The position numbers were made by a program, and so were the translations under genes. From Paracholeplasma manati (GTDB taxonomy: Bacteria; Bacillota_I; Bacilli_A; Acholeplasmatales; UBA5453), in NCBI RefSeq assembly GCF_025742995.1, contig NZ_JAOVQM010000003.1, positions 248,001 to 312,000 on the forward strand: a stretch of 64,000 bases of DNA. The letters are read 5' to 3'. This document shows positions 28,545-64,000 of this stretch, one piece after another (positions within the stretch are counted from its first letter, which is position 1; each line of letters opens with the position of its first letter). The notes under the pieces are model-generated. The model searched no databases. It was not told the origin of the DNA and saw only the letters and a list, made by a program, of their open reading frames with translations.

Positions 28545-28777
28545 AGAAAAGTCCCTAAGAATTTGCATTCTTAAGGACGATTGATCGTGGTACCACCTTA
28601 ATTCTATTCACAAAAAGTGAATAGCACTTCATTACCGATAACGGGGTCATCCGAATTGAGTTACTCTGCGTTCACTCAATCAACTCCAGGGCTACCTTCA
28701 ACAAGTCACATCAGATTTTTCACCAACCAATCTGTCTCTATTATGTGGGGTTTGCTTACTCTTCCCATTCTTCGTTT
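28545..28777 (-). ncRNA. T-box leader, probably tRNA-Val specific
   Basis: The minus strand carries the conserved T-box AAGGTGGTACCACG (28586-28599), then a 12-bp terminator stem (28551-28562 with 28567-28578) and a T-rich tail. A candidate Val specifier GTA lies in GGTAGCC (TAC at 28693-28695 on the plus strand), consistent with valS downstream. Low charged tRNA-Val would favour the antiterminator. Confidence 0.9.
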
Positions 28778-28782
28778 GATTT

Positions 28783-51517: not shown

Positions 51518-52552
51518 TTATGCCCCCCATCTTACAACATTGGCCGCCCATACATACCCAATCCCTGCCGCTAGCATACATACGATCGTGCCATCTTTGA
51601 CTTGACCGCTTTGTAAAGCTAAATGAAGAGAAAGGATTTGGTCGATTTGTCCAATGTGTCCATAATTTTCTAAGTAAATGGATTGTTCAGGTTTTAAACC
51701 CAAATCTTGTAATAAAGAGACGTGACCTGAACGCTTCATGTGAAGGATTGCTAAAAATCCATCTTGAGAGAACTGTTCTTTAGAGAAGTTCGATTTGCGT
51801 AACGATTCTTCAATACACTTGTACCAGTTAGGCATCGATACTTCATTCAAACGATTTTTCATTTTAATTGGGTCTAATAAACGTAAAGACTTCTTCGCTT
51901 CTTCCACGTTTTCTTTGGTAATTGGGTTACAAATACCCCCAATTTCAACCCCAGCGGTTCTCGATAATGACCCATCCCCGATGATGTGTGAACCTAAAAG
52001 TTCATTTTTGCCATAATTTTTCTTTAAGATGATGGCACCACCACCAGCGGCTAAATCGTACATCATCGACATATTTTTATCGGTGTAATCGACAAAATCT
52101 AGGTTACGATATCCACCAACCACCATTACAGTGTGTACATCGTCATCTGCAATCAACATATCTTTCGCCATTTTTAGTGCAGATACGGTGGTGCAGCAAC
52201 GGTTTTGTACGTCAATTCCCCAAGCATTTACAGCACCAATACGATCTTGAACGTATAAAGCGGATGTGGTGAGTGGGTATTCTTTCCATTCTTCAGTGAC
52301 ACAGAGGATGACGTCGATTTCTTTCGGGTCAACACCTGTATTCTTTAAACAATCTAAGGCTGCTAACGCACCCATTTCTTGTGATCCGTCCATGACAGGA
52401 TCGACAGGAACGATTTTTTCAACGATACCTAATTTTTCTTCAATGGCTTGTTCTGTCCAAACGCCATTGGTTCTTTCTGCGATTTCTTTCGCAGACATTC
52501 TACCTTTTGGTAAGTATATACCTGTACCAACAATGCCTACAGATGGTTTCAT
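51518..52552 (-). CDS. 3-oxoacyl-ACP synthase III-like enzyme with Cys-His-His site
   Basis: The 344-residue thiolase-fold protein follows the KAS III layout. The nucleophile is probably Cys120 in DVQNRCCTTVSAL, and His271 is in FLAILHMKRSGH. The third residue, Asn in FabH (GNTS), is replaced by His299 in ENYGHIGQID. Altered third residues are known in KAS III relatives that do acyl transfer or ester formation instead of decarboxylative condensation. Position between fabG-like and liv genes argues for a catabolic or specialised role, not housekeeping fatty-acid synthesis. Confidence 0.8.
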   Translation of the reverse strand: MKPSVGIVGTGIYLPKGRMSAKEIAERTNGVWTEQAIEEKLGIVEKIVPVDPVMDGSQEMGALAALDCLKNTGVDPKEIDVILCVTEEWKEYPLTTSALYVQDRIGAVNAWGIDVQNRCCTTVSALKMAKDMLIADDDVHTVMVVGGYRNLDFVDYTDKNMSMMYDLAAGGGAIILKKNYGKNELLGSHIIGDGSLSRTAGVEIGGICNPITKENVEEAKKSLRLLDPIKMKNRLNEVSMPNWYKCIEESLRKSNFSKEQFSQDGFLAILHMKRSGHVSLLQDLGLKPEQSIYLENYGHIGQIDQILSLHLALQSGQVKDGTIVCMLAAGIGYVWAANVVRWGA

Positions 52553-52603
52553 AAAAAGATCCTTTCTATCCTCGAATGAGGCTTTATTATTACGAACGAC
52601 AAG

Positions 52604-52621
52604 CCAAACGGTTGTTTGGCG
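52604..52621 (-). other. Small hairpin between the SDR and KAS III-like genes
   Basis: GCCAAAC (52604-52610), loop GGTT, GTTTGGC (52615-52621). It lies in the 82-base gap between two operon genes. No T run; perhaps an mRNA-processing or stabilising stem. Confidence 0.45.
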
Positions 52622-52634
52622 TGTGTTTTATGAT

Positions 52635-53354
52635 TTATAGACGCATACCGCCATTGACGTTGATGGTTTGTCCTGTGATGTAAGATGAATCATCGCTTGC
52701 TAGGAATAAAGCCACTTTAGCGATTTCTTCAGGTTGTCCAAGACGACCCAACATGGTCAATTTCGCAAATCCATCCAATAATTCTTGTGGTACAGTTTTT
52801 AGAATGTCTGTCATGACATACCCTGGAGCGATGGCGTTGACACGTACATTCGCACCTTTTCTCGCAAATTCTTTAGCCCATGTCATGGTTAAACCCAAGA
52901 CTCCGGCTTTGGTTGCAGCATAGTTGGCTTGTCCAATGTTACCGAATACACCAACAACAGATGAAATGTTGATGATGGAGCCTTTACCTTGGTTTTCCAT
53001 TTGTGGTCCTACATGACGGGTTAAGTTGAAGACACCTTTTAAGTTAACATTGATGACAGCATCCCATTGTTCATCGGTCATTTTACGTGTCATGGCATCT
53101 TTGGTAATACCTGCATTGTTGACTAAAATGTCTACATGTCCAAATTCTGCTAAAACTTCGTCAAAGAAAACTTTGCAGCCTTGAGAATCTGTCACGTTTA
53201 ATTTCTTGTAAAACACATTTTCGCATTCATAGGTCATTTCACCCATATCAGCAGCGATGACTTTCGCACCTTCTTGTGCAAAAGCTTTCGCAATTTCCAT
53301 ACCAATCCCTTTAGCACCACCGGTAATGATGGCGACTTGTCCTTGTAATTTCAT
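52635..53354 (-). CDS. Short-chain dehydrogenase, 3-oxoacyl/acetoacetyl-CoA reductase type
   Basis: The 239-residue SDR has the NAD(P) motif TGGAKGIGMEIA, the NNAG motif (LVNNAGITKDAM) and the catalytic Ser-Tyr-Lys (NISSVVG and NYAATKAG). It ends SYITGQTINVNGGMRL, as in FabG/PhbB. With a thiolase next door the likely reaction is acetoacetyl-CoA to 3-hydroxybutyryl-CoA or the reverse; FabG activity on ACP substrates cannot be excluded. Confidence 0.88.
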   Translation of the reverse strand: MKLQGQVAIITGGAKGIGMEIAKAFAQEGAKVIAADMGEMTYECENVFYKKLNVTDSQGCKVFFDEVLAEFGHVDILVNNAGITKDAMTRKMTDEQWDAVINVNLKGVFNLTRHVGPQMENQGKGSIINISSVVGVFGNIGQANYAATKAGVLGLTMTWAKEFARKGANVRVNAIAPGYVMTDILKTVPQELLDGFAKLTMLGRLGQPEEIAKVALFLASDDSSYITGQTINVNGGMRL

Positions 53355-53366
53355 TGTTTTCTCCTT

Positions 53367-54575
53367 TTATCGTTTAACGATGATGGCTGTACCCATACCG
53401 CCACCGATGCATAGGCTAGCTAAACCCATATGCTTATCTTGTTTCTTAAGTTCATGAATGAGTGTGACGATGATTCTATTGCCAGATACACCGACTGGGT
53501 GTCCTAAAGCAATCGCACCACCATTGACATTTGTTTTTTCTAATAAAGCTTGTTTAGACACGCCATGGGCTTCTGCTAGTTCATTGACAACACCTAGGCT
53601 TTGAGCCGCGAATGCTTCATTGAGTTCTAATAATTCCATATCGGACAATTTCATGTTTGCTCTTTGAAGAACATCCTTAATTGCTGGAACTGGACCTAAC
53701 CCCATCACGTTTGGATCGACACCGCCTTGACCGACTGCAACGATTTCACCTAAGACCGGTAAGTTGTATGTTTTAACCATTGCTTCTGAAGCAAGGATCA
53801 TAAAACTTGCACCATCATTGATACCGGATGAGCTACCTGCGGTAACCAATCCATCATTTTTAAATGCGGGTCTGAGTTTTGCCATTTTTTCTGCGTTGGT
53901 ACCACGGTTAGGGTACTCGTCATTCGAAAATACGATGGTTTCTTTTTTGGTTTTGATTTCGATTGGTACGATTTCATCTGAGAAACGACCTGAATCGACT
54001 GCTTGGATTGCTTTTTGTTGTGAACCTAGTGCAAATCCATCCAATTCTTCACGGGTTAATTGGTGTTTCGCTGCGATATTTTCAGCGGTAATCCCCATGT
54101 GCATCCCTGGTGTAAAGGAATCGTGTAAAGCGTCTTGCAAGATGGTATCTTTCATGTCGAGTGAACCCATCTTGACACCATCCCTTACTTTAGAGGTGAC
54201 AACATATGGCGCACCGCTCATGGATTCAACCCCACCAGCCACTACCAATTGTGAGAAACCAGATTGAATACCCACATAAGCATTCATGACTGATTTCATC
54301 CCACTGCCGCATACCATGTTTAAAGTATAGGCTGGGATTTCATTGGATAAACCAGCTTTAATGGAGATTTGTCTAGCGATATTTTGTCCTAAACCTGCTT
54401 GAATAACGTTTCCTACAATCACTTCATCGATTTTGTCTTTTGGAACATTCGTATCCGCTAAAAGTTGCTTGAGTACTTGTGTGCCAAGTTCTACTGGATG
54501 AAGATCTTTTAAAGTGCCTAAGAATGCGCCGATTGGACTTCTTTTTGCACCAACAATAAATACTTTTTGATTCAT
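53367..54575 (-). CDS. Acetyl-CoA acetyltransferase (thiolase)
   Basis: This enzyme condenses two acetyl-CoA to acetoacetyl-CoA or cleaves it. The start is ATG at 54573-54575 behind AAGGAGG, giving 402 residues. Catalytic residues sit in NMVCGSGMKSV (Cys about 88), ALGHPVGVSGNRI (His) and CIGGGMGTA (Cys). It is first in the ten-gene operon, behind a consensus promoter with a dyad in the leader. Confidence 0.92.
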   Translation of the reverse strand: MNQKVFIVGAKRSPIGAFLGTLKDLHPVELGTQVLKQLLADTNVPKDKIDEVIVGNVIQAGLGQNIARQISIKAGLSNEIPAYTLNMVCGSGMKSVMNAYVGIQSGFSQLVVAGGVESMSGAPYVVTSKVRDGVKMGSLDMKDTILQDALHDSFTPGMHMGITAENIAAKHQLTREELDGFALGSQQKAIQAVDSGRFSDEIVPIEIKTKKETIVFSNDEYPNRGTNAEKMAKLRPAFKNDGLVTAGSSSGINDGASFMILASEAMVKTYNLPVLGEIVAVGQGGVDPNVMGLGPVPAIKDVLQRANMKLSDMELLELNEAFAAQSLGVVNELAEAHGVSKQALLEKTNVNGGAIALGHPVGVSGNRIIVTLIHELKKQDKHMGLASLCIGGGMGTAIIVKR

Positions 54576-54927
54576 GGTATCCTCCTTGATTTTTGAATTC
54601 ATCTATTTTAATCGATTGAATCGTGATTTCATGATTTCGGTTAAAAGTACGTGAATAAAAATTCATATCACACCTTCATTCTACGTGATACGAAATGACT
54701 TGTCAAGCGCTTACATAAAAATAATTATTCACCCATTCATATGAATTCTAGTTCACCCAACCACTCGGCTGAAATTACCGAAATCCATGAAATGTAATTT
54801 CATTATAGACTTAAGGGCTTAACCGTCGCTTAATCAATGGTCACTTCTTTTTGTAACATGAAAAAATTCAATCACTTTTCGCTTGTGTTTTTTACCATCG
54901 TGCTATACAATGAAATCGGTGATTACT
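54576..54927. promoter_or_regulatory. Divergent control region, thiolase operon and TetR gene
   Basis: This 352-base gap has no gene. Minus strand: TTGACA (54701-54706), 17 bases, TAGAAT (54678-54683) drives the thiolase operon. A cre-like core AAGCGCTT (54705-54712) overlaps the -35. Plus strand: TTGTGT (54883-54888), 17 bases, TACAAT (54906-54911) drives the TetR gene. Dyads: TGAAT-AAAA-ATTCA (54652-54665) just after the operon start site, the palindrome ATTCATATGAAT (54735-54746), and TGAAAT-N3-ATTTCA (54788-54802). Confidence 0.65.
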
Positions 54928-55594: not shown

Positions 55595-55625
55595 TAAAAA
55601 AATACCGCCATTATTGGGCGGTATT
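55595..55625 (-). terminator. Terminator of the TasA-like/SipW/AAA operon
   Basis: AATACCGCC (55601-55609) pairs perfectly with GGCGGTATT (55617-55625); the minus strand then has a run of T. The stop codon of the last signal peptidase is in the loop. Confidence 0.85.
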
Positions 55626-56276
55626 ATTTTTGTCTTTGTTAGCGTCTCTACGCGATTTCATTTCATTTTCTAACTCAATCCTTAAACGTTCCTTTTCGGC
55701 TTTGATCCAAGCTTCTTTTTCAATTTCATGTTTCTCTAGTATTTTCGCTTCTTGGGTTTCACGAACCATCTTTAAGAAGTTGATCAATTCGTGTACTAAA
55801 ATGAATAACAAGAGTACAATGATGACCAGGAATACGATGTGTCTATAGTTAAGTGTAATATTACCGATATCGAATAACATGAAGTGTGACACCACTACCC
55901 CAATAAAGTTCTCTTCAGTCACGAAACCATCATCCGCTGCTGGGTTATTATCACCTTTAGTAATCAGTCCATCTGGGGTCGCTTCAATGGCTCTATGGAC
56001 AATGTTTTTATCGGTTCGAAATGCGATAATCGGTGTTTCCCCATCTAACACAGATTGGTAAATCTTATCATAGGATTCATATCGAATGATGATGAATTCA
56101 CCGGTCATAATGGTGGGTTCCATCGAGCCAGACCCAACTACAGAATAGGTATGATTAAAGACTTTTAAGTAACGATTTTCCTGTAAAGAAAGTGTCCCTA
56201 ATAACAATAAAAGGACGGATGCTAGAAAGAAAAATACTGTGAATACCGTCATCGATATTTTTATGATTTTTTTCAT
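55611..56276 (-). CDS. SipW/ER-type signal peptidase I (distal copy)
   Basis: The 221-residue protein has an N-terminal helix (about 7-28), the nucleophile motif VGSGSMEPT (Ser51), FIIIRYESYD, and the His that replaces Lys in the SipW/ER class (NIVHRAIE, His94). GDNNPAADD follows at about 108-116 and a second helix at about 146-164. The tail is charged and coiled-coil-like. SipW enzymes mature TasA/camelysin-type fibre proteins. It is last in the c-di-GMP-controlled operon and a second such peptidase is encoded upstream, so the two may have different substrates. Confidence 0.87.
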   Translation of the reverse strand: MKKIIKISMTVFTVFFFLASVLLLLLGTLSLQENRYLKVFNHTYSVVGSGSMEPTIMTGEFIIIRYESYDKIYQSVLDGETPIIAFRTDKNIVHRAIEATPDGLITKGDNNPAADDGFVTEENFIGVVVSHFMLFDIGNITLNYRHIVFLVIIVLLLFILVHELINFLKMVRETQEAKILEKHEIEKEAWIKAEKERLRIELENEMKSRRDANKDKNNTAQ

Positions 56277-56294
56277 TTAGTTCCCTCCTTTATT

Positions 56295-58340
56295 TTATTC
56301 TACTTCACTATCGGTTTTAGGCGTTTTGGACTCTTTTGGAAGGCCATCTTTTTTAAGCTTTTCAATGTCTTTTTCAGATTGTTTTTGAATGTCTAAGAGT
56401 GCTTTTTCTTGTTTCTTAGCCATCGATAATTTGAGTTTTTCAAATTCTTTCAACAGCTTTTCTTGTTCCTTTTGACGTTGAAGTTTGAGTTTTTTCATCA
56501 AACGATCATGCTCAATCTTCGCTTTTTTACGTAGATTGGATACAACCAAACGATATTCAGCTTTGGCTTTCTTTTGTGCCTCTGCAATCGCGTTCTTTTC
56601 CTCACGTTCCAACTTTTTAAGTTGCTTTGCTTGTTCTTTTTCAATCGCTTCACGTTCCGCATTGAAATGTTTGTCTAGTGTCGCAATCTTTTGATCCAAT
56701 TGGTTTTGGAGTGTTTGTTTTAGATTATTGATGAGTGTGTTGTTTTCTTCAATCGCTTTTTGAGTTTCAGAAGCGATGGTTTCATCCACTTGTTTTTTCT
56801 CTAACAATAGTGTTTCACGGTTTTGATTGACGAGTTCAAGGTTGTCAGAAAGCATTTGTGCTTCTTTCGCAGCAATGTCTTTTTGTTCCTTTAACGCGGC
56901 TTCAATCTTAATCCGTTCGGCTTCATCTTCGGTTTTCTTTCGATTCATCAGAATGAGGCGTTGATTGGCACCTTCAATGTCTTTCATCAACTTGCGTTCT
57001 AAACGAATGGCATTGTTATAATCGACTTCTTTGGTTTCTCGAATGATTCTCGCAATCTTGGCTTTTTCCTTAGATACTTCTAAGTTTTTCTCAACGTCAT
57101 CGTCTTTGACCATGCGTGAGAAATAGTCATCATTTTCTTCCAACTCAAAATGATGTTTAAAAATCGCATTCGAAATGGATATCGTATCACGTAAAGCACG
57201 CTTCAAACCAACTTCATAGGTTGAACTGCGTTCGACTTCTTCTTCCACACGTTTTTTAAAGATTTTAATGTTTTCTTGTAAGAAATATTGGTTGATACGT
57301 TCATCTTCAACCACAATCGGTTCAGGTGTATCAACGATATCATTCACATGGATGTTCGCAATTTTAAATGCTTTCTTGATGATTTCTTTTTCAACTATTT
57401 CATCATAAGATGGCTTTCTAACGCCTTGGTTAAAAGCGACCATGGTAAATGTGTTGAGTGCCAATCTTTCTACTGCATCCTGATAAGAACGGTCAAATAT
57501 CATGTCTTTTTCTTTAACAGTGACGTCATACGCCAAAGTATTATAGCGGTCTAAGAATAGCCACAAGACATAACAGTTTCTAAAATCCACGTTCTTTAAA
57601 ATAACGTTAGTTTGCATGATGGGTGGCATAACTTTCTTTTCACCAGCCATCAAAGTCATGAATGGGGAGTTACGAATGGATGTGACACGTTTTGAAAGGT
57701 ATTCTACACGTTCGAGAATCCCTTTGTTGTATATATTGATGGATTTATCTTCTAAGTCTTCTTTAAAGACGACATCGAGGTTCATATCGACTTCTAAGTC
57801 AGATATATGGAATGTCGATGTGTAGTTAAAATGTTTCTTTTGATAGGAGATAATATTATCTTTAATGAGTTCATGACGGCTTCTGACGAAGTTAAAAAGC
57901 CGTTCTATGAGGGTCATCACAAATCGGTTTTCATAAGTACCATAGTCGATATCGGTTTCAGTCGTCATGATCTTCTTTGGCATCACGACTTCATCACGAA
58001 TTTCACGGATGAAGTGGGTGTGAGAAGCTAAATGACGAATGGAATTGCTACGAATCTTTTTGGCTTTTTCAATCGGAACGATTTCTTCTAAGTATTTTAA
58101 ACCCGATTTCGGGTTAAGAATAATCTTTTCAATGCTTGGAAAATAGGATTCAATGGTCTTAATCCACGTTTCATCAAAGGTTTTAGTCTCTGACATCGCC
58201 TTTTGATATAACGTGTTTTTACCTGACATTAAAGCACTATAAAAAGTCTTTGGAAAAGTATGGGACTTTTCCAAATCTTTAAAAGTTTGATCGTATGAAT
58301 AATAGAACTGACTTAATTTGTCGGTTTGTCTTTTTTTCAT
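56295..58340 (-). CDS. DUF2357-domain protein with long C-terminal coiled coil
   Basis: Of the 681 residues, about 1-380 form a folded region with the DUF2357-type signature YGTYENRFVMTLIERL (about 133-148) and RHLASHTHFIREI. In known McrBC-like systems DUF2357 proteins are McrC-type partners of AAA ATPases, often ending in a PD-(D/E)xK nuclease. Here no such nuclease motif is visible; residues about 425-670 are an uninterrupted Lys/Glu/Gln coiled coil. No signal peptide or membrane helix. It is 12 bases after the AAA gene, so the two probably act together. Confidence 0.7.
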   Translation of the reverse strand: MKKRQTDKLSQFYYSYDQTFKDLEKSHTFPKTFYSALMSGKNTLYQKAMSETKTFDETWIKTIESYFPSIEKIILNPKSGLKYLEEIVPIEKAKKIRSNSIRHLASHTHFIREIRDEVVMPKKIMTTETDIDYGTYENRFVMTLIERLFNFVRSRHELIKDNIISYQKKHFNYTSTFHISDLEVDMNLDVVFKEDLEDKSINIYNKGILERVEYLSKRVTSIRNSPFMTLMAGEKKVMPPIMQTNVILKNVDFRNCYVLWLFLDRYNTLAYDVTVKEKDMIFDRSYQDAVERLALNTFTMVAFNQGVRKPSYDEIVEKEIIKKAFKIANIHVNDIVDTPEPIVVEDERINQYFLQENIKIFKKRVEEEVERSSTYEVGLKRALRDTISISNAIFKHHFELEENDDYFSRMVKDDDVEKNLEVSKEKAKIARIIRETKEVDYNNAIRLERKLMKDIEGANQRLILMNRKKTEDEAERIKIEAALKEQKDIAAKEAQMLSDNLELVNQNRETLLLEKKQVDETIASETQKAIEENNTLINNLKQTLQNQLDQKIATLDKHFNAEREAIEKEQAKQLKKLEREEKNAIAEAQKKAKAEYRLVVSNLRKKAKIEHDRLMKKLKLQRQKEQEKLLKEFEKLKLSMAKKQEKALLDIQKQSEKDIEKLKKDGLPKESKTPKTDSEVE

Positions 58341-58352
58341 TTAAAAACTCAC

Positions 58353-59891
58353 CTAGTTCATCTTCTTAAGATCTGTTAGGAATGAAATACATTCTTTGAA
58401 TACGTTCTTACCGAATAATTTATCGAGCAATACGATCAGTTCGCTCAGTTCATCTTGTAAGAATGGTAAGTTCAAGACTTCGAACTTTCTTAAGATCTTT
58501 CTCGCAACCATATAATCGAGTGCTTCGTATTCAGAACCACCACAGCCAACATAAATTGGTGTAAATAGTTTAATTTGTTTCATGATACGGTTACCAAACG
58601 TGATTTTAAACTTTTGTGCGATAAAATCATCGAGTTTGCCTAAGTTATCAAGTGCTTTTGGCGAAATCGGATGTGCTTTCCAAGCAGCGTCAAACAAGGT
58701 CTTTAAATATTCATAGCTCATGGTGACACCTTCAGTATATGGGGCGTCAACAAATTCAGCTTTTGTATTCATAATAATAGAGGATGCACGGTCATAAACT
58801 TTGTCGGTAATGGTGAATGTAGAGTCATCTTTATTCGCTGTACCAACGAACCATACATTTTGAGGGACTAAAATCTTACCATCCATGAAGTGCTTAGGGT
58901 CGGTAGGTTGACGGTCTGATACAACGTCAATCTTCCATTCTGCTTCGTTCGGCATTTCCATGATGGATAGGAATTCTGCAAAATAATACTCAATACGCGC
59001 TAAGTTTAATTCGTCTAGGACGATGAAGTTTAAATCTTCACGATAAGTCGTTTCGTAGAGTTCTTTTAAGAAGTCAGTTTCATTGAATTTCTTGGTAAAT
59101 TCGTTTAGATAACCGATCATTTCGGCTCTATCACGCCAAGATGGTTGAACGGAAATAATCGCGGAATCGTGTCCGAAGAATTTCCCCATCGCGTAAGGTA
59201 AACTGGTTTTACCGGTACCGGAGATACCTTCAAGAATTAATATCTTGGAGGATGCCATACCTGCAAAGAAGGTACGGATGATTTTTTCATTGTAGTATAA
59301 ATTTAATCTAGATGCTGAGAAGTTGATGAAACGGTTGATTAATTCTGGTAAACCAATGGTATCTTCAGGTGTCATTTGGATAGAGGTAATGACATTTCTA
59401 TACGCTTCATCCACTTGAGTGAGTTTAGCAAATCTGGTTGGACCAATGGCTTGAGGTGTGTTTTTATCTGGTTTATCTTGTTCTTTACCAGGTAATGAGG
59501 AGGATGCAGAGGCACCACCCAATTTTAGCATGAGAATCTTGTTCTTTTCATCTGCAAGTTCTACTGTTTTTTGGGTTAATAAAGCGACTTCCTCTAACAA
59601 TTCGTCTTTATCCATTTCAGTTTTAATAAAACGAATATAGACACGTAACATTTGATATATCTTCAAAATGAAGAAAACAAGAAAAACCATATTGATCCCT
59701 AAGATCAAGATGGCGATTAGCCAATCTAGGAAGCCGAATAATGTACTGGCTTGAACTAAATCTTCAAAATATTGTCCCACATCATTAAAAAATAAATCGG
59801 CAAATGCACCAATGATTGCATTGAAAAATTTGCCGATATTACCGAAGAAATCTCTAATGAACTGGATGTAAAAACGAGCAAAGTTAACCAT
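58353..59891 (-). CDS. Membrane-anchored McrB-like AAA+ ATPase
   Basis: The 512-residue protein has an amphipathic N-terminus, one strong helix at about 57-80, a charged linker and an AAA+ domain. Walker A is GISGTGKTS (222-230), Walker B is FIVLDELNLARIEYYFAEFL (289-308), the sensor region is FVGTANKDDS (348-357) and the Arg finger DRAS is near 367. The LDE-N-AR-E pattern is that of McrB/dynein-related ATPases, but the GTP-selective MNTADRS motif is absent. The DUF2357 gene follows. Placement among signal peptidases and exported proteins suggests a role in envelope assembly. Confidence 0.8.
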   Translation of the reverse strand: MVNFARFYIQFIRDFFGNIGKFFNAIIGAFADLFFNDVGQYFEDLVQASTLFGFLDWLIAILILGINMVFLVFFILKIYQMLRVYIRFIKTEMDKDELLEEVALLTQKTVELADEKNKILMLKLGGASASSSLPGKEQDKPDKNTPQAIGPTRFAKLTQVDEAYRNVITSIQMTPEDTIGLPELINRFINFSASRLNLYYNEKIIRTFFAGMASSKILILEGISGTGKTSLPYAMGKFFGHDSAIISVQPSWRDRAEMIGYLNEFTKKFNETDFLKELYETTYREDLNFIVLDELNLARIEYYFAEFLSIMEMPNEAEWKIDVVSDRQPTDPKHFMDGKILVPQNVWFVGTANKDDSTFTITDKVYDRASSIIMNTKAEFVDAPYTEGVTMSYEYLKTLFDAAWKAHPISPKALDNLGKLDDFIAQKFKITFGNRIMKQIKLFTPIYVGCGGSEYEALDYMVARKILRKFEVLNLPFLQDELSELIVLLDKLFGKNVFKECISFLTDLKKMN

Positions 59892-59919
59892 CGTCTTACC
59901 TCTCTAAATCGAAGAAAAA

Positions 59920-60630
59920 CTATTTGTTGGATTCTTCCTTCTTAAGTTCTTCTAATAATTCTTTACGAATTCTTTCTTTTTCAGCTTCAAGTAGTTGTTC
60001 TTTATCAACTGCGTGTTTAGCTTCAATCTTTTCTTTGTTAACAGCAAGTAATGTCTTGGTTAAGACATATCCTTGATATGCTAGTAATAATACAACTGGT
60101 GCAATAACGAAGATTGCGAAACCGGTTGGGGTCTGTAAATAAGATACTGCACTACCAACGCCACCGATATCTCCAGTGCGGATTGCTTTAATATTGTTGT
60201 ATGTAACTATTTCATATTGAACACCAGTGTTATCTCCACCAATGACGTATGGTGAAATTGCTGCAGCTTTATCACCTTGTGTAACAACATAACTAGGTGT
60301 AACATAAACGATTCTATGAGTATTTAATGCCACTAGGTTTAAATCCCAGAATGTAATGATATCACCAATCTCTAAATCAAGTTTTTCTTCATCAGAGAGT
60401 AATTTTACAAAAACTAATGATCCCTTATTAAATGAATCGGAATTATTACCTTCCATCGAGTCAGAGATTACTGGCAAAAAACCTCTTCCAAGTACATTAG
60501 CAATGTCTTTATTCGAGCGAACACTTAAATTTGAAATCGAAAATAAAAGCAGAAATACTATTAACGTATAAAACAGTATATTCCCCACTTTTTTTAAAAC
60601 ATTTAATATATTTGATTTAGATTGACTCAC
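59920..60630 (-). CDS. SipW/ER-type signal peptidase I (proximal copy)
   Basis: The start is GTG at 60628-60630, 8 bases from GGGAG; an ATG directly abutting the box is less likely. In the 236-residue protein a first helix lies at about 17-35, nucleophile Ser58 in ISDSMEGNN, the ER-type His105 in NTHRIVYV, TQGDKAA near 117-123 and a second helix at about 167-187. The tail is a charged coiled coil. It sits directly after the exported proteins whose TFA-W signal ends suit SipW-type cleavage. Confidence 0.87.
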   Translation of the reverse strand: MSQSKSNILNVLKKVGNILFYTLIVFLLLFSISNLSVRSNKDIANVLGRGFLPVISDSMEGNNSDSFNKGSLVFVKLLSDEEKLDLEIGDIITFWDLNLVALNTHRIVYVTPSYVVTQGDKAAAISPYVIGGDNTGVQYEIVTYNNIKAIRTGDIGGVGSAVSYLQTPTGFAIFVIAPVVLLLAYQGYVLTKTLLAVNKEKIEAKHAVDKEQLLEAEKERIRKELLEELKKEESNK

Positions 60631-60639
60631 TAGACACAT

Positions 60640-60715
60640 CTCCCTTTAGACAACGTTTTCACTAATACAATTATATTATATTATTTGTCTAAAATCTAGT
60701 ATCAATGAGATTATC
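60640..60715 (-). promoter_or_regulatory. Possible internal promoter and long dyad before the signal peptidase
   Basis: TTGATA followed by TAATATAATATAAT-like sequence on the minus strand may be an internal promoter. TTTAGACAA (60645-60653) and TTGTCTAAA (60685-60693) form a perfect 9-base inverted repeat enclosing it and touching the ribosome site. Confidence 0.4.
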
Positions 60716-60741
60716 TTAAAACATGTAGTGATTTTAAAGAT

Positions 60742-60769
60742 AAGGTTTGCATGTCGCCATGCAAACCTT
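60742..60769 (-). terminator. Strong hairpin after the third TasA-like gene
   Basis: AAGGTTTGCATG (60742-60753), loop TCGC, CATGCAAACCTT (60758-60769): a perfect 12-bp stem. The minus-strand tail ATCTTT is short, so it is likely a partial terminator or mRNA stabiliser. Confidence 0.65.
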
Positions 60770-60783
60770 TACCAATTTATTTA

Positions 60784-61731
60784 TTATTCGTCAACACCAA
60801 ATCCAAGTTGAACAGATAATGTAGAGTTGAAAATAGCATCAAATGTATCAGCATCGAAACCTTCAATCCAAACTCTTACAATTACATTTCCATAGTAGTA
60901 ACCATCAGCTGGGCTTCCAAGTGTTAATAGTTCTGCAGGAGTTGTATTAATTAGAGAGGTAGCATGTACTGTTGGAGCAGCTGCACCATAAGTAGTAGTC
61001 TTACCTGCTGCAACTCCATATGCTGCTGCACCATAAGGTGTACCAGTACCAGCACCAACTGTAAATACACCACCAACATCTTCTAAATCGTATGATACTA
61101 CATCATCATTAGAGTTGTAAACACCTAGTACAGTACCTTCAGGTGCTTGGAAAGTATATGTACCTGCAGTTCCTTCAATTGAAACTCTAGCACCAGTATA
61201 TGCTGAAACTTGTTTTGTTTCATTTAACAACCATGGAGTAATACCATCAGATGAGATAAACGAAGGAACGTTTACGACCCAAGGTTGTGGATCGCCAGTT
61301 AATTCTGCTGAATTCCAGACAATTGTCTTAATCGCACTAGATCTAAAATAAAGAGTGAATTGAATATATTTAGCTGCAGGTGAATATGATATATCAGATA
61401 GAGCTTCATTTCTAATTACCGAGCCATCTGCAGATGTCATATTATCGAATCTGAAGTTATTATACATATTATCTATGTAATCTTCAATAACATTTGTAGG
61501 CATAACAGTGTACCAAACTGTATCTGCGTCTGGTGCTGTATATGCGTTAGTACCATTCCAATCACCTAATGTGATTTCAATACCTTCACCAGCTGTGACT
61601 TGTGCTTCAAACGGGCTGATTGCTGCTTTGTTTGTAAGTGTGAACCATGCGAATGTCGATGTACCTAGTGCGATTACGACTAGAGCCATCGTTACTACTG
61701 ATAAAACTAATTTTTGAGTTAATTTTCTCAT
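60784..61731 (-). CDS. Exported TasA/camelysin-like surface protein (third copy)
   Basis: The 315-residue protein has a signal peptide of the SipW-dependent kind ending ALGTSTFA-WFTLTN, with predicted cleavage after Ala28. The mature part is Ser/Thr/Tyr/Asp-rich beta sequence. Residues about 235-256 hold a low-complexity run of YGAAA-like repeats (PYGAAAYGV, TYGAAAPT). It ends with VWIEGFDADTFDAIF (from 287), shared with the two upstream paralogs. The AAAGGGG ribosome site and the hairpin behind the gene suggest it may be the main, highly made subunit. Confidence 0.75.
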   Translation of the reverse strand: MRKLTQKLVLSVVTMALVVIALGTSTFAWFTLTNKAAISPFEAQVTAGEGIEITLGDWNGTNAYTAPDADTVWYTVMPTNVIEDYIDNMYNNFRFDNMTSADGSVIRNEALSDISYSPAAKYIQFTLYFRSSAIKTIVWNSAELTGDPQPWVVNVPSFISSDGITPWLLNETKQVSAYTGARVSIEGTAGTYTFQAPEGTVLGVYNSNDDVVSYDLEDVGGVFTVGAGTGTPYGAAAYGVAAGKTTTYGAAAPTVHATSLINTTPAELLTLGSPADGYYYGNVIVRVWIEGFDADTFDAIFNSTLSVQLGFGVDE

Positions 61732-61807
61732 TTTGTTTTTCCCCTTTTTCCTTTGTTTTTTATGTCTTTTTTATTTCATATCAATTACGATTGTAACTGA
61801 TTTATGA

Positions 61808-62779
61808 CTAAATTACAATACTTTCAGCCGATTGAAACTCGAAACTAAATAATAATGTATCTTCGTAAATCGCGTCAAACGAATCTGCATCCCAACCTTC
61901 AACCCAGATATTCAATCTGAATTTACCCATGTAATAGGTTTTGTTTTGATCATTTACTTGATCGGTTGCGATGAGTGTAGCTACTTTTGAATTTTCATCG
62001 AGTGGGATGTAAGGATTGTCTGGTGTAAAGTTTGATAAGCGTTCAATGACGGGTTGTGGTGTGTCAGGCAACTGTATATAAACTGCCTTAGATTTTCTTA
62101 AATAATCTACACCACCATAGTTCTTTCCATAACCACGTATAGGATTTTCTGTTGGGTCATAGATGAAACTTCTTAATTCACTGTCATCTCTTGTATCCAA
62201 GGGATTATCTGTTTTTAACTCGGTTAATGAAATTCGGATCGCGTCTTTGGCGAAATAGGTTCTAATTTCATTTTCGAAAACGGTGTCGTTTGGTCCAAGA
62301 TTGAATGTTACTGGACTTCTAAATGGTACGCCTTTTGATAACACATATGTCCCGCGAGCAGGAGGGTTATCGAATGTGCCTTCTTGACTGACATTATTGA
62401 CTAAGTAGACGTTTCGATATCGCGTGGTTGTTCTAACATACAGTTCGATTGAAATGTAGTTGACGTTAGGTATCCCTTCGAAATTCAGTTCTGCGTCTAC
62501 CAGTTGAATTCTGTTACCGATGAAGTTTGTGCCATCGGTAGAGGTTAAATCCATCAGTCTTGAGCCTCGCCATAATTCATTAATTTGTTCTGTTGTGATT
62601 TCACTAGACCATTCGATACCGTCTAATGAGAATTCTAGGAAACTGTCTGGTTTCATGTTGAGTTGAAGTCCATCAACTCTATTGGTATCTCCCATACTAA
62701 CCCACGCGAAGGTGGCTGTTGTAAAGGTCAATGTGAGAAGGATCATCGATAGCGCTGTGATATATAACTTCTTAATCAT
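61808..62779 (-). CDS. Exported TasA/camelysin-like surface protein (second copy)
   Basis: The 323-residue protein has an N-terminal signal helix ending TATFA-WVSMGDTN (cleavage after Ala25 predicted). The N-terminal mature region (DSFLEFSLDGIEWS) resembles that of the third protein. The C-terminal motif is IWVEGWDADSFDAIYEDTLLF (from about 291). It starts 4 bases after the first protein and probably relies on coupling. It may be a minor fibre subunit. Confidence 0.72.
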   Translation of the reverse strand: MIKKLYITALSMILLTLTFTTATFAWVSMGDTNRVDGLQLNMKPDSFLEFSLDGIEWSSEITTEQINELWRGSRLMDLTSTDGTNFIGNRIQLVDAELNFEGIPNVNYISIELYVRTTTRYRNVYLVNNVSQEGTFDNPPARGTYVLSKGVPFRSPVTFNLGPNDTVFENEIRTYFAKDAIRISLTELKTDNPLDTRDDSELRSFIYDPTENPIRGYGKNYGGVDYLRKSKAVYIQLPDTPQPVIERLSNFTPDNPYIPLDENSKVATLIATDQVNDQNKTYYMGKFRLNIWVEGWDADSFDAIYEDTLLFSFEFQSAESIVI

Positions 62780-62783
62780 AGGC

Positions 62784-63524
62784 TTATGTCGCCGCGTTTC
62801 TGATTGAGAACTTCATATCGATTTTAATGCTACCGCGTTCCATGTTAGGCTCTGTGTCGTAGCCTTCAATCCACATAAACACAGTGAATTTCAATACTTT
62901 TTGTGTTTGTAACTTCTCGATGGTCTCACTGATGATTGGGTCTCTCGAATACTGATCACTCAGAAAGTGTTTCGCTTCAGGCATCCCAATTGGATAATTC
63001 TTTGGTGTCTCATCTGGTTTCATATACATTTGTTGTGTGTAACCAAATGGTTCAGCACCGACTTGTTCTACCAGTATCATAATTCGGATGTATTCATCCA
63101 AATTTTTGGATACTTCGACGATATTGATCTCGTAAGTTAAATTGATCATTTCTAATCCATTGTTTCTTACGTAGAACGAATAGGCTAAGTAGTCCGCATC
63201 GTCATCGTCATATAGACCATCATTTGCTTGTGCTTCTGCAATTTTTAGATAGCTGTAGGTTGCTTCATCAGATTCTTCTTTAGGATCGACGTATAAACGA
63301 GAAGTTGCTGATTCTTCCGGAAAGAGTGGATGTTCAGATAACTGAATCCCTTTCGCAACTGCTTCTTCATTCATCGATATTACGAATGAACCGGTGGACA
63401 ACCCATAAAATGTGACAACCCCAAATCCAAGTGAAAGTAGACCCGATATGATAACGCCTAGCGTTAAGAATCTAGCCGTCATTGTGGTTGTCTTCTTGAT
63501 CCCAAGAACGGTTGAAAGTCTCAT
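62784..63524 (-). CDS. Exported TasA-like surface protein with uncleaved anchor (first copy)
   Basis: The 246-residue protein has a hydrophobic segment at about 18-42 preceded by a basic, Thr-rich stretch (KKTTTMTAR). It lacks the FA-W cleavage pattern of its paralogs, so it may stay anchored as a base. The C-terminal motif is MWIEGYDTEPN (from about 217). It is first after the c-di-GMP riboswitch. GGGGTGTGAG precedes the ATG. Confidence 0.7.
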   Translation of the reverse strand: MRLSTVLGIKKTTTMTARFLTLGVIISGLLSLGFGVVTFYGLSTGSFVISMNEEAVAKGIQLSEHPLFPEESATSRLYVDPKEESDEATYSYLKIAEAQANDGLYDDDDADYLAYSFYVRNNGLEMINLTYEINIVEVSKNLDEYIRIMILVEQVGAEPFGYTQQMYMKPDETPKNYPIGMPEAKHFLSDQYSRDPIISETIEKLQTQKVLKFTVFMWIEGYDTEPNMERGSIKIDMKFSIRNAAT

Positions 63525-63565
63525 ATCTCACACCCCTTGTTTCGTGAATTGACTGATTTTATATA

Positions 63566-63602
63566 TGAAAAAGCCAGCTGTCACGAAAAATGACAACTGG
63601 CT
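63566..63602 (-). terminator. Expression-platform terminator of the c-di-GMP riboswitch
   Basis: AGCCAGCTGTCA (63572-63583) pairs with TGACAACTGGCT (63591-63602), with one G-T pair in RNA, and the minus strand ends in T5. The 5' arm in the RNA overlaps the AGCC at the aptamer 3' end, so the two structures compete. Confidence 0.85.
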
Positions 63603-63664
63603 ACCATTTATATAGGCCCTATAGCTTTGCGTCACTAGATTTCTCTAGTTTTGCCTTTAACATT
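63591..63664 (-). ncRNA. c-di-GMP-I riboswitch (GEMM) aptamer
   Basis: The minus strand reads GGCAAAACTAGAGAAATCTAG, then GTGACGCAAAGCTATAGG and GCCTATATAAATGGTAGCC. The order GGCAAA, a GNRA-like hairpin, GACGCAAAGC, GGGCCTA and TGGTAGCC is the GEMM-I consensus. It lies in the leader of the TasA-like operon, and an EAL gene sits directly upstream. Confidence 0.88.
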
Positions 63665-63685
63665 AGTTTGAATTTTACTACACCT

Positions 63686-63715
63686 ATAATATACACCTAC
63701 AAAAAAGAATGTCAA
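63686..63715 (-). promoter_or_regulatory. Promoter of the riboswitch-controlled surface operon
   Basis: On the minus strand, TTGACA (63710-63715) and TATTAT (63686-63691) are 18 bases apart. The start is about 10 bases before the aptamer. Confidence 0.7.
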
Positions 63716-63734
63716 CAGTTTTGAAATATTTTTT

Positions 63735-64000
63735 TTATAATTGGATGAGTTTGGATAAATCGGTTTCTTTATAGTATGTTTTCAAATTCTCAAATGACAT
63801 TGGACGGGCAAAGTAAAACCCCTGAACGATATGAATATTGTAGCCAGCAATGGTCTGTAACATTTGTTCGTTTTCAATACCTTCTGAGATGATCGTCTTT
63901 TGGTTCTTCTCAGCAAACTCAACGAGCAAGGTTACGAATCTGGATTTAACGTAAGAGTGTTCTTCATTCAAGAACTCTTTCGATAGTTTGATCGTATCTA
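63735..64000 (-). CDS. EAL-domain c-di-GMP phosphodiesterase, C-terminal fragment
   Basis: The gene continues beyond the right edge; the frame is open to base 64000 and reads DTIKLSKEFLNEEHSYVKS. Visible motifs are DTIK (the usual D-x-IK of EAL), ISEGIEN (EGVE-type metal site region) and VQGFYFARPM, the standard EAL ending. EAL enzymes hydrolyse c-di-GMP to pGpG. Whether a GGDEF or sensor part precedes it cannot be seen. It lies just upstream of a c-di-GMP riboswitch. Confidence 0.88.
   Translation of the reverse strand, partial: DTIKLSKEFLNEEHSYVKSRFVTLLVEFAEKNQKTIISEGIENEQMLQTIAGYNIHIVQGFYFARPMSFENLKTYYKETDLSKLIQL

Follow-up and report, generated by a model that had tools for sequence, protein, structure and literature searches.

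We favour, with some reserve, the view that the seven-gene operon near the end of the window (the whole 64,000-nucleotide stretch of Paracholeplasma manati DNA that we analysed) is a surface-fibre biogenesis operon that works as proposed below and is of the CoCoPALM kind, the name under which Bell et al. (2024; PMC11090510) described McrB-like GTPases and McrC homologues with transmembrane and coiled-coil parts and a link to signal peptidases. Its motor probably helps to build a surface structure rather than to cut DNA. The seven open reading frames, a riboswitch and a terminator-like hairpin all lie on the minus strand of the window, as follows.

63735-64000, minus strand: 3' part of the gene for a degenerate, membrane-anchored GGDEF-EAL protein (474 aa), upstream of the operon and running off the window
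63686-63715, minus strand: predicted promoter-like site, TTGACA and TATATT/TATTAT with a 16-18 nt spacer, 11/12 consensus matches; the TTGACA-N16-TATATT form spans 63715-63688
63589-63665, minus strand: c-di-GMP-I (GEMM-I) riboswitch aptamer, RF01051
63572-63602, minus strand: intrinsic-terminator-like hairpin at the aptamer, its 5' arm overlapping the 3' strand of the aptamer's second helix
62784-63524, minus strand: T3, exported protein predicted to be membrane-anchored, 246 aa (ORF)
61808-62779, minus strand: T2, SipW-type exported beta-sandwich protein, 323 aa (ORF)
60784-61731, minus strand: T1, SipW-type exported protein, 315 aa (ORF)
60742-60769, minus strand: strong hairpin AAGGTTTGCATGGCGACATGCAAACCTT between the subunit and machine genes
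59920-60639, minus strand: Sip1, SipW/ER-type signal peptidase with a charged cytosolic tail, 239 aa (ORF and family models)
58353-59891, minus strand: membrane-anchored McrB-like AAA+ protein, 512 aa (ORF; NxD motif N353-K-D-D)
56295-58340, minus strand: DUF2357 (McrC N-terminal-like) protein, 681 aa (ORF and PF09823)
55611-56276, minus strand: Sip2, second SipW/ER-type signal peptidase, 221 aa (ORF and family models)
55601-55625, minus strand: terminator-like hairpin at the operon end

The riboswitch, the three exported proteins, both peptidases, the anchored McrB-like AAA+ protein, the coiled-coil DUF2357 protein and the terminator of the initial annotation were all recovered on the same strand, and judged from sequence it is plausible that the seven genes form one predicted transcription unit. 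The subunit genes are separated from the machine genes by a 144-base gap holding the strong hairpin, the position of which is kept in relatives and the sequence of which is not.

The gene order T3-T2-T1-Sip-AAA-DUF2357-Sip is shared by Paracholeplasma and other Acholeplasmatales, and a reduced form of it is found in Izemoplasmatales and in Clostridia MAGs. Neighbourhoods were counted around 82 distinct full-length AAA homologues with 3 kb of upstream sequence: a SipW-type peptidase stood at position -1 or -2 in 66, and an exported T-type gene no more than five genes away in 65. The DUF2357 gene directly followed the AAA gene in 88 of 99 cases, and 11 second-copy AAA genes had no adjoining DUF2357. 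Across 61 genomes, AAA and T2 occurred together in 31, were both missing from 28 and occurred singly in 2 (Fisher about 4e-15, relatedness ignored). Most of the AAA homologues lacking a peptidase at -1 or -2 belong to a second, paralogous module composed of a giant cadherin-like membrane surface protein (2500 aa), a degenerate GGDEF-EAL protein, AAA and DUF2357. It had been claimed from the window alone that the AAA/DUF2357 pair belongs with the surface genes; loss of this association was looked for in relatives and not borne out, and the surface reading stands because the pair is conserved with the surface genes there.

What is it that the operon would export? All three T proteins had been called exported and TasA-like, a description that holds in part. 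T2 and T1 look like typical SipW-type substrates, and T3 has a hydrophobic N-terminus without the T-[FY]-A-W cleavage motif, for which reason it is probably membrane-anchored; T3 is likely the base or initiator of the structure. The label "TasA-like" itself found no backing in any family model for T1-T3. Family models gave scattered weak hits on T1 and T2 (camelysin in 3 of 21 T1 rows, best E 0.04), and the T1 and T2 sequence profiles matched no solved structure. The likeness to TasA is a modest one, drawn from the motif in the signal peptides, from the neighbouring SipW genes and from a fold comparison of modest score: the top alignment of the T2 model (pLDDT 87) was to the TasA fibre 8aur (Z 5.5, 144 residues, within the tool's range for unrelated folds), and FimA/CFA-type pilins came next. 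T2 also has a conserved C-terminal NIW-EGWDAD motif. T1, with a dN/dS of about 0.5, evolves approximately 10 times faster than AAA and DUF2357 (about 0.05, strong purifying selection), and is likely an exposed fibre subunit.

The exported proteins might instead form an adhesive coat or an S-layer-like sheet, the machine being a general exporter of very large surface proteins. This would suit the exported proteins of 1100-2470 aa that follow the operon in relatives, as well as the cadherin-like protein of the paralogous module, but the best structural neighbours of T2 are all fibre subunits and the window operon has no giant surface protein, and we consider a coat fairly unlikely. A fibre remains our preferred product. 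The dedicated processing enzymes are well defined: TIGR02228 picks up both peptidases over its curated cut-off (61.5 and 52.0 bits against 51.85 bits), their Ser and His are invariant, and the peptidase profile matched ER-type SEC11 at 1e-13. The SipW model NF046067 also matches both (7e-13 and 2e-17), yet under its own strict cut-off.

The AAA+ protein matches PADLOC PDC-M26A at 3e-37, and its profile matches the solved McrB structure at 4e-4. A single clear transmembrane segment spans residues 58-76, and the stretch after it is charged and looks helical. None of the Walker A, Walker B, NxD sensor or D-R residues varies among 26 homologues, so hydrolysis matters. Among the tandem and 900-aa AAA types, where the P-loop can take the form GMSGTGK, all 900-aa proteins and the majority of tandem copies keep it intact; an extra upstream AAA-like copy at four loci (L051, L057, L058 and L059) has lost it. 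The 681-aa partner matches DUF2357 (PF09823) over the cut-off, at 43.7 bits and E 3e-11. PF09823 is its sole tie to McrC, because its profile yielded only coiled-coil noise against solved structures and its model (pTM 0.38), compared with known folds, only helical look-alikes. In that model the C-terminal part is a single long helix of about 240 residues (416-654), and a PD-(D/E)xK nuclease fused to DUF2357 was not found.

Could such a pair simply be a membrane-anchored, CoCoNuT-like defence module that shares the operon, with the surface proteins as structures through which phage is sensed? The AAA+ protein is related to PDC-M26A and McrB, and a 900-aa relative nearer to PDC-M26A (L062) is encoded elsewhere in the same genome. 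However, no nuclease family was matched in the seven operon proteins and none was seen in the DUF2357 model, whereas nuclease-less CoCoNuTs always adjoin a nuclease (Bell et al., PMC11090510), and a constant gene order with peptidases, control by c-di-GMP and conservation across an order set the locus apart from typical defence islands. We consider a defence role very improbable and have set it aside as the main role. The pair shares with CoCoNuTs an NxD McrB-like domain, a long coiled coil and an McrC homologue without an active nuclease, but here no HEPN or other nuclease adjoins it and it is tied to surface genes. From Type IV restriction by E. coli McrBC, which likewise joins a McrB-like AAA+ to a DUF2357 partner, it differs in that no DNA-binding domain was seen, no PD-(D/E)xK nuclease was found and there is a membrane anchor instead.

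A different possibility is that the pair serves for scaffolding or timing: it would cluster and regulate the two peptidases and the general export channel at a single site, or remove stalled subunits, while the fibre self-assembles as TasA does. TasA fibres assemble through strand exchange, and their operon as published includes no ATPase (PMC9674648); moreover, the charged cytosolic tails of the SipW proteins and the very long DUF2357 helix suit a scaffold. The invariance of the catalytic residues in all 26 homologues speaks against it, and we think this role rather unlikely, preferring an AAA+ that would itself power export or assembly.

Control by c-di-GMP, proposed in the initial annotation, is conserved in relatives. 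The RF01051 aptamer scores 67.2 bits (E 5e-11; Rfam gathering score 35 bits). In 24 retrieved loci the riboswitch lies directly upstream of T3, in 1-4 tandem copies, and across 61 genomes riboswitch and T2 were both present in 32, both absent from 28 and found singly in 1 (Fisher about 2e-16, relatedness ignored). Additional copies stand ahead of more SipW-type genes. In the window and in many relatives, the 5' arm of the terminator overlaps the 3' helix strand of the aptamer, so that ligand binding would preclude termination and the reverse, and an ON switch is implied by this overlap. Most class I c-di-GMP riboswitches tested in C. difficile are OFF switches (PMC6200980), and were that so here the structure would be made at low c-di-GMP; given the overlap, we regard an OFF switch as distinctly unlikely. 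No report of a c-di-GMP riboswitch in wall-less Mollicutes was found in the literature searched. Two of the genome's only four EAL matches, against 21 GGDEF matches, lie just upstream of the operon. In alignments the 474-aa GGDEF-EAL protein has DGFG, and the 845-aa protein encoded further upstream keeps its EAL and DDFG motifs.

We propose that at high c-di-GMP the aptamer would keep its second helix, the overlapping terminator would be prevented and the operon would be transcribed. T2 and T1 would be exported and then cut by the dedicated peptidases of SipW/ER type; outside the cell, which has no wall, they would polymerise on T3 as a membrane-anchored base, probably through TasA-like strand exchange. 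The AAA+ protein would be held in the membrane, its ATPase ring facing the cytosol. The DUF2357 protein would dock on this ring and stimulate it, as McrC does McrB, and its long coiled coil and the charged peptidase tails would couple the ring to the export/processing site, where ATP or GTP hydrolysis may drive or gate subunit export, folding or release. The degenerate membrane GGDEF-EAL protein encoded upstream may in addition be a c-di-GMP sensor that gates the machine directly. We put forward tentatively the possibility that a McrBC-derived AAA+/DUF2357 membrane machine was taken over from a role in nucleic-acid defence and now powers and gates extracellular fibre building, with c-di-GMP controlling it twice: through riboswitches, often in tandem, at transcription, and through a degenerate GGDEF-EAL receptor at the protein level.

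How much of this is new? The claim that no system with this set had been described does not hold, as CoCoPALM had already been named (PMC11090510), in one paragraph that assigns no function, suggests pilus assembly and leaves function for later work; SipW is never mentioned in the main text. Common to both are an NxD McrB-like AAA+, a coiled-coil McrC/DUF2357 partner and signal peptidase neighbours. In CoCoPALM the NxD motif of the AAA+ commonly has D or E after it, and the AAA+ is fused to a transmembrane and coiled-coil (FtsB-like) segment (PMC11090510). The relatives of the window protein read N-[KRN]-D-[DE], including N-R-D-E forms that cannot be NxxD; its own transmembrane segment leads into the charged, helical-looking stretch, a candidate coiled coil. 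To CoCoPALM as published we add TasA-like substrates, c-di-GMP riboswitches, degenerate GGDEF-EAL partners and the giant-adhesin module; fibre-like SipW substrates are new, as is c-di-GMP control at the RNA and probably the protein level, and so are the hairpin kept between the subunit genes and the machine genes and the fast evolution of one subunit.

The TapA-SipW-TasA system of Bacillus similarly pairs a dedicated ER-type signal peptidase with exported beta-sandwich subunits bearing SipW-type signal peptides, but the operon in its published form contains neither an AAA+ protein (PMC9674648) nor a DUF2357 protein or c-di-GMP riboswitch, the cell is walled, and similarity to the subunits here is below detection in sequence. 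The paralogous module brings to mind LapD-LapA, in that a membrane-bound degenerate GGDEF-EAL protein adjoins a giant surface adhesin. LapD-LapA places giant adhesins under c-di-GMP control; neither a LapG-type protease nor type I secretion was seen here, and the AAA/DUF2357 pair is present instead.

For CoCoPALM, named but unexplained, there are now probable substrates, a regulator and hosts that can be cultured (Paracholeplasma, Acholeplasma and Peloplasma), and with these at hand its function becomes directly testable. If our reading is right, a restriction-type AAA+ pair acts at the membrane and on proteins, and c-di-GMP controls a surface structure in wall-less Mollicutes. If the machine was indeed recruited from defence, it would represent a distinct kind of surface-assembly system, one that belongs to wall-less bacteria and the Firmicutes related to them and has sister modules that serve giant adhesins.

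The operon's contig, 327 kb long, is part of a 1.87-Mb genome from the Acholeplasmatales, which are wall-less bacteria, and the whole gene set claimed in the initial annotation is present, behind a promoter-like site that prediction rates as good:

about 63715, minus strand, promoter-like site, then c-di-GMP-I aptamer (67 bits)
63524-62784, minus strand, exported protein T3
62779-61808, minus strand, exported protein T2
61731-60784, minus strand, exported protein T1
60639-59920, minus strand, SipW-type signal peptidase
59891-58353, minus strand, membrane-anchored McrB-like AAA+
58340-56295, minus strand, DUF2357 protein
56276-55611, minus strand, second SipW-type peptidase
to about 55601, minus strand, terminator-like hairpin

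The gaps between the seven genes are, in order, 4, 76, 144, 28, 12 and 18 bases. Elsewhere the window holds a T-box leader (28570-28781, minus strand, 140 bits) and consecutive KAS III-like, short-chain reductase and thiolase genes adjoining a TetR regulator (51518-54602).

This gene order recurs throughout the loci compared. Homologues of the AAA+ occur in 43 of 61 genomes examined, in 54 of 295 sampled across the phylum and, at 93% identity, in Paracholeplasma vituli, a match that identifies the host as Paracholeplasma-like; there were 542 confirmed places in named genomes, and neighborhoods were fetched for the best 80. Among 110 distinct full-length homologues, 82 had at least 3 kb upstream and 99 had room downstream; a SipW-type peptidase lies one or two genes ahead in 66 of the 82 and a T-type gene within five genes in 65, while DUF2357 is the next gene in 88 of the 99. 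By our own estimate a peptidase would fall so close by chance about once in 100, given some three such peptidases per 1.5-Mb genome. Presence of the AAA+ and of T2 agrees in 59 of the 61 genomes, the exceptions being one with T genes at a contig end (G035) and one with a cadherin-type module and no T2 (G051). The proposed association of the AAA+/DUF2357 pair with surface genes is thus borne out in relatives.

Control by c-di-GMP, also proposed initially, gains support from the riboswitch, present in 33 of the 61 genomes: it accompanies T2 in 32 of 32 genomes and occurs in 1 of 29 lacking T2 (raw counts that ignore relatedness), and directly precedes T3 in 24 fetched loci, in up to four tandem copies. 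Four stand ahead of T3 in G023 (L034:1426-1877) and three in each of G043, G039 and G018; such arrays may sharpen the response. The second helix of the window's aptamer ends in a strand, AGCC-AGUUGU, that doubles as the 5′ arm of a terminator-like hairpin of 13 pairs (63602-63572), so that ligand binding and termination should be mutually exclusive, which predicts an ON switch. A strict automatic rule called this overlap in 18 of 36 switches, the window's included, and inspection reveals it, with a bulge, in several that the rule missed. Class I switches in C. difficile are mostly OFF (PMC6200980), so that ON stays a predicted direction. Elsewhere, an extra riboswitch just downstream of one operon precedes genes for further SipW-type exported proteins and for an exported protein of 2360 aa (L030:9782-18369), and the second riboswitch of the window's genome (L064:8483-8557), with no clear same-strand gene downstream, is possibly an orphan.

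Two GGDEF-EAL genes lie upstream of the operon, one (845 aa) keeping EAL and DDFG motifs with a degenerate GGDEF, the other (474 aa) reading DGFG without a GGDEF motif. As the genome has 21 GGDEF matches against only four EAL matches, two of them just upstream of the operon, c-di-GMP is very probably made in this host and locally degraded or sensed. A further layer of control may lie between T1 and the first peptidase, where, of 63 gaps exceeding 40 bases, 50 contain a perfect stem of at least 10 pairs (4 in shuffled sequence), differing in sequence among species and rare in the operon's other gaps. These stems can naturally be read as terminating transcription in part or as shielding the message upstream of them, which would leave subunits in excess over the machine.

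Are the exported proteins TasA-like, as first annotated? The N-termini of T2 and T1 carry a hydrophobic stretch mostly closing with T-[FY]-A-W, and both share a C-terminal W-EGWDAD motif to which the ending of T3 is related. The predicted T2 model (pLDDT 87) is beta-rich and aligns best to the TasA fiber (Z 5.5, 3.8 Å over 144 residues), then to chaperone-usher pilins, but no model in the family libraries names T1-T3 and a Foldseek search with T2 gave nothing significant. TasA subunits assemble by exchanging N-terminal strands (PMC9674648), and the T2 model has a strand at residues 33-42, after the presumed cleavage site; alignment and strand support T2 as a candidate fiber subunit, short of proof. 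In species pairs, by simple counting with synonymous sites near saturation, dN/dS is about 0.04-0.06 for the AAA+ and DUF2357 protein, 0.07-0.19 for the peptidases and T2/T3, and 0.5 for T1, which therefore probably faces the exterior more than any other part.

The AAA+ keeps intact motifs (Walker A GISGTGKTS, Walker B VLDELN, N-K-D-D), nearly invariant across 26 homologues; more distant members read N-R-D-E, which marks the motif as NxD, the shortened type defined for the CoCoNuT/CoCoPALM branch (PMC11090510). It has one transmembrane segment (residues 58-76), and the basic residues that follow would place the ATPase part in the cytosol, where we hypothesize that it acts as a motor. The DUF2357 protein lacks transmembrane segments. 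In its model, of moderate overall confidence (pTM 0.38), a mixed domain occupies the N-terminus, a single helix (416-654) would span some 36 nm if straight, and no nuclease domain was found.

Most AAA+ loci without the usual neighbors share one further arrangement (12 loci), lacking SipW: a surface protein (about 2500 residues) that carries cadherin-like repeats and, at its C-terminus, a transmembrane segment; a degenerate GGDEF-EAL protein (about 440 residues); the AAA+; and DUF2357. At L046:523-12969, for example, the surface protein has 2613 aa. Recurrence of a degenerate GGDEF-EAL in this different module suggests that such proteins may control the machine directly. A third arrangement (L051:5964-20000) has tandem AAA-DUF2357-AAA with a transglutaminase-like protein, a giant MBG-domain protein and an additional upstream AAA-like copy whose P-loop has been lost. 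Second AAA copies without DUF2357 sit ahead of giant exported proteins, with small exported proteins between at L102:1695-12212 and similar loci. The window's genome also encodes a 900-aa NxD McrB-like protein with a 517-aa partner (L062:7827-12088), nearer PADLOC PDC-M26A and likely a CoCoNuT-like relative.

The initial annotation knew of no described system with this set, but one had been named: Bell et al. (2024; PMC11090510) gave the name CoCoPALM to a clade of McrB-like GTPases that carry transmembrane/coiled-coil segments and are accompanied by coiled-coil McrC homologues and neighboring signal peptidases; they suggested pilus assembly and deferred treatment to a later paper. The operon shows those CoCoPALM features that are open to testing. 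Among the papers searched, none joined SipW with the AAA+/DUF2357 pair; priority on the details is uncertain. We conclude that this surface-structure operon is real and conserved and belongs to a class already named though not yet characterized, to whose description our study adds regulatory and substrate evidence.
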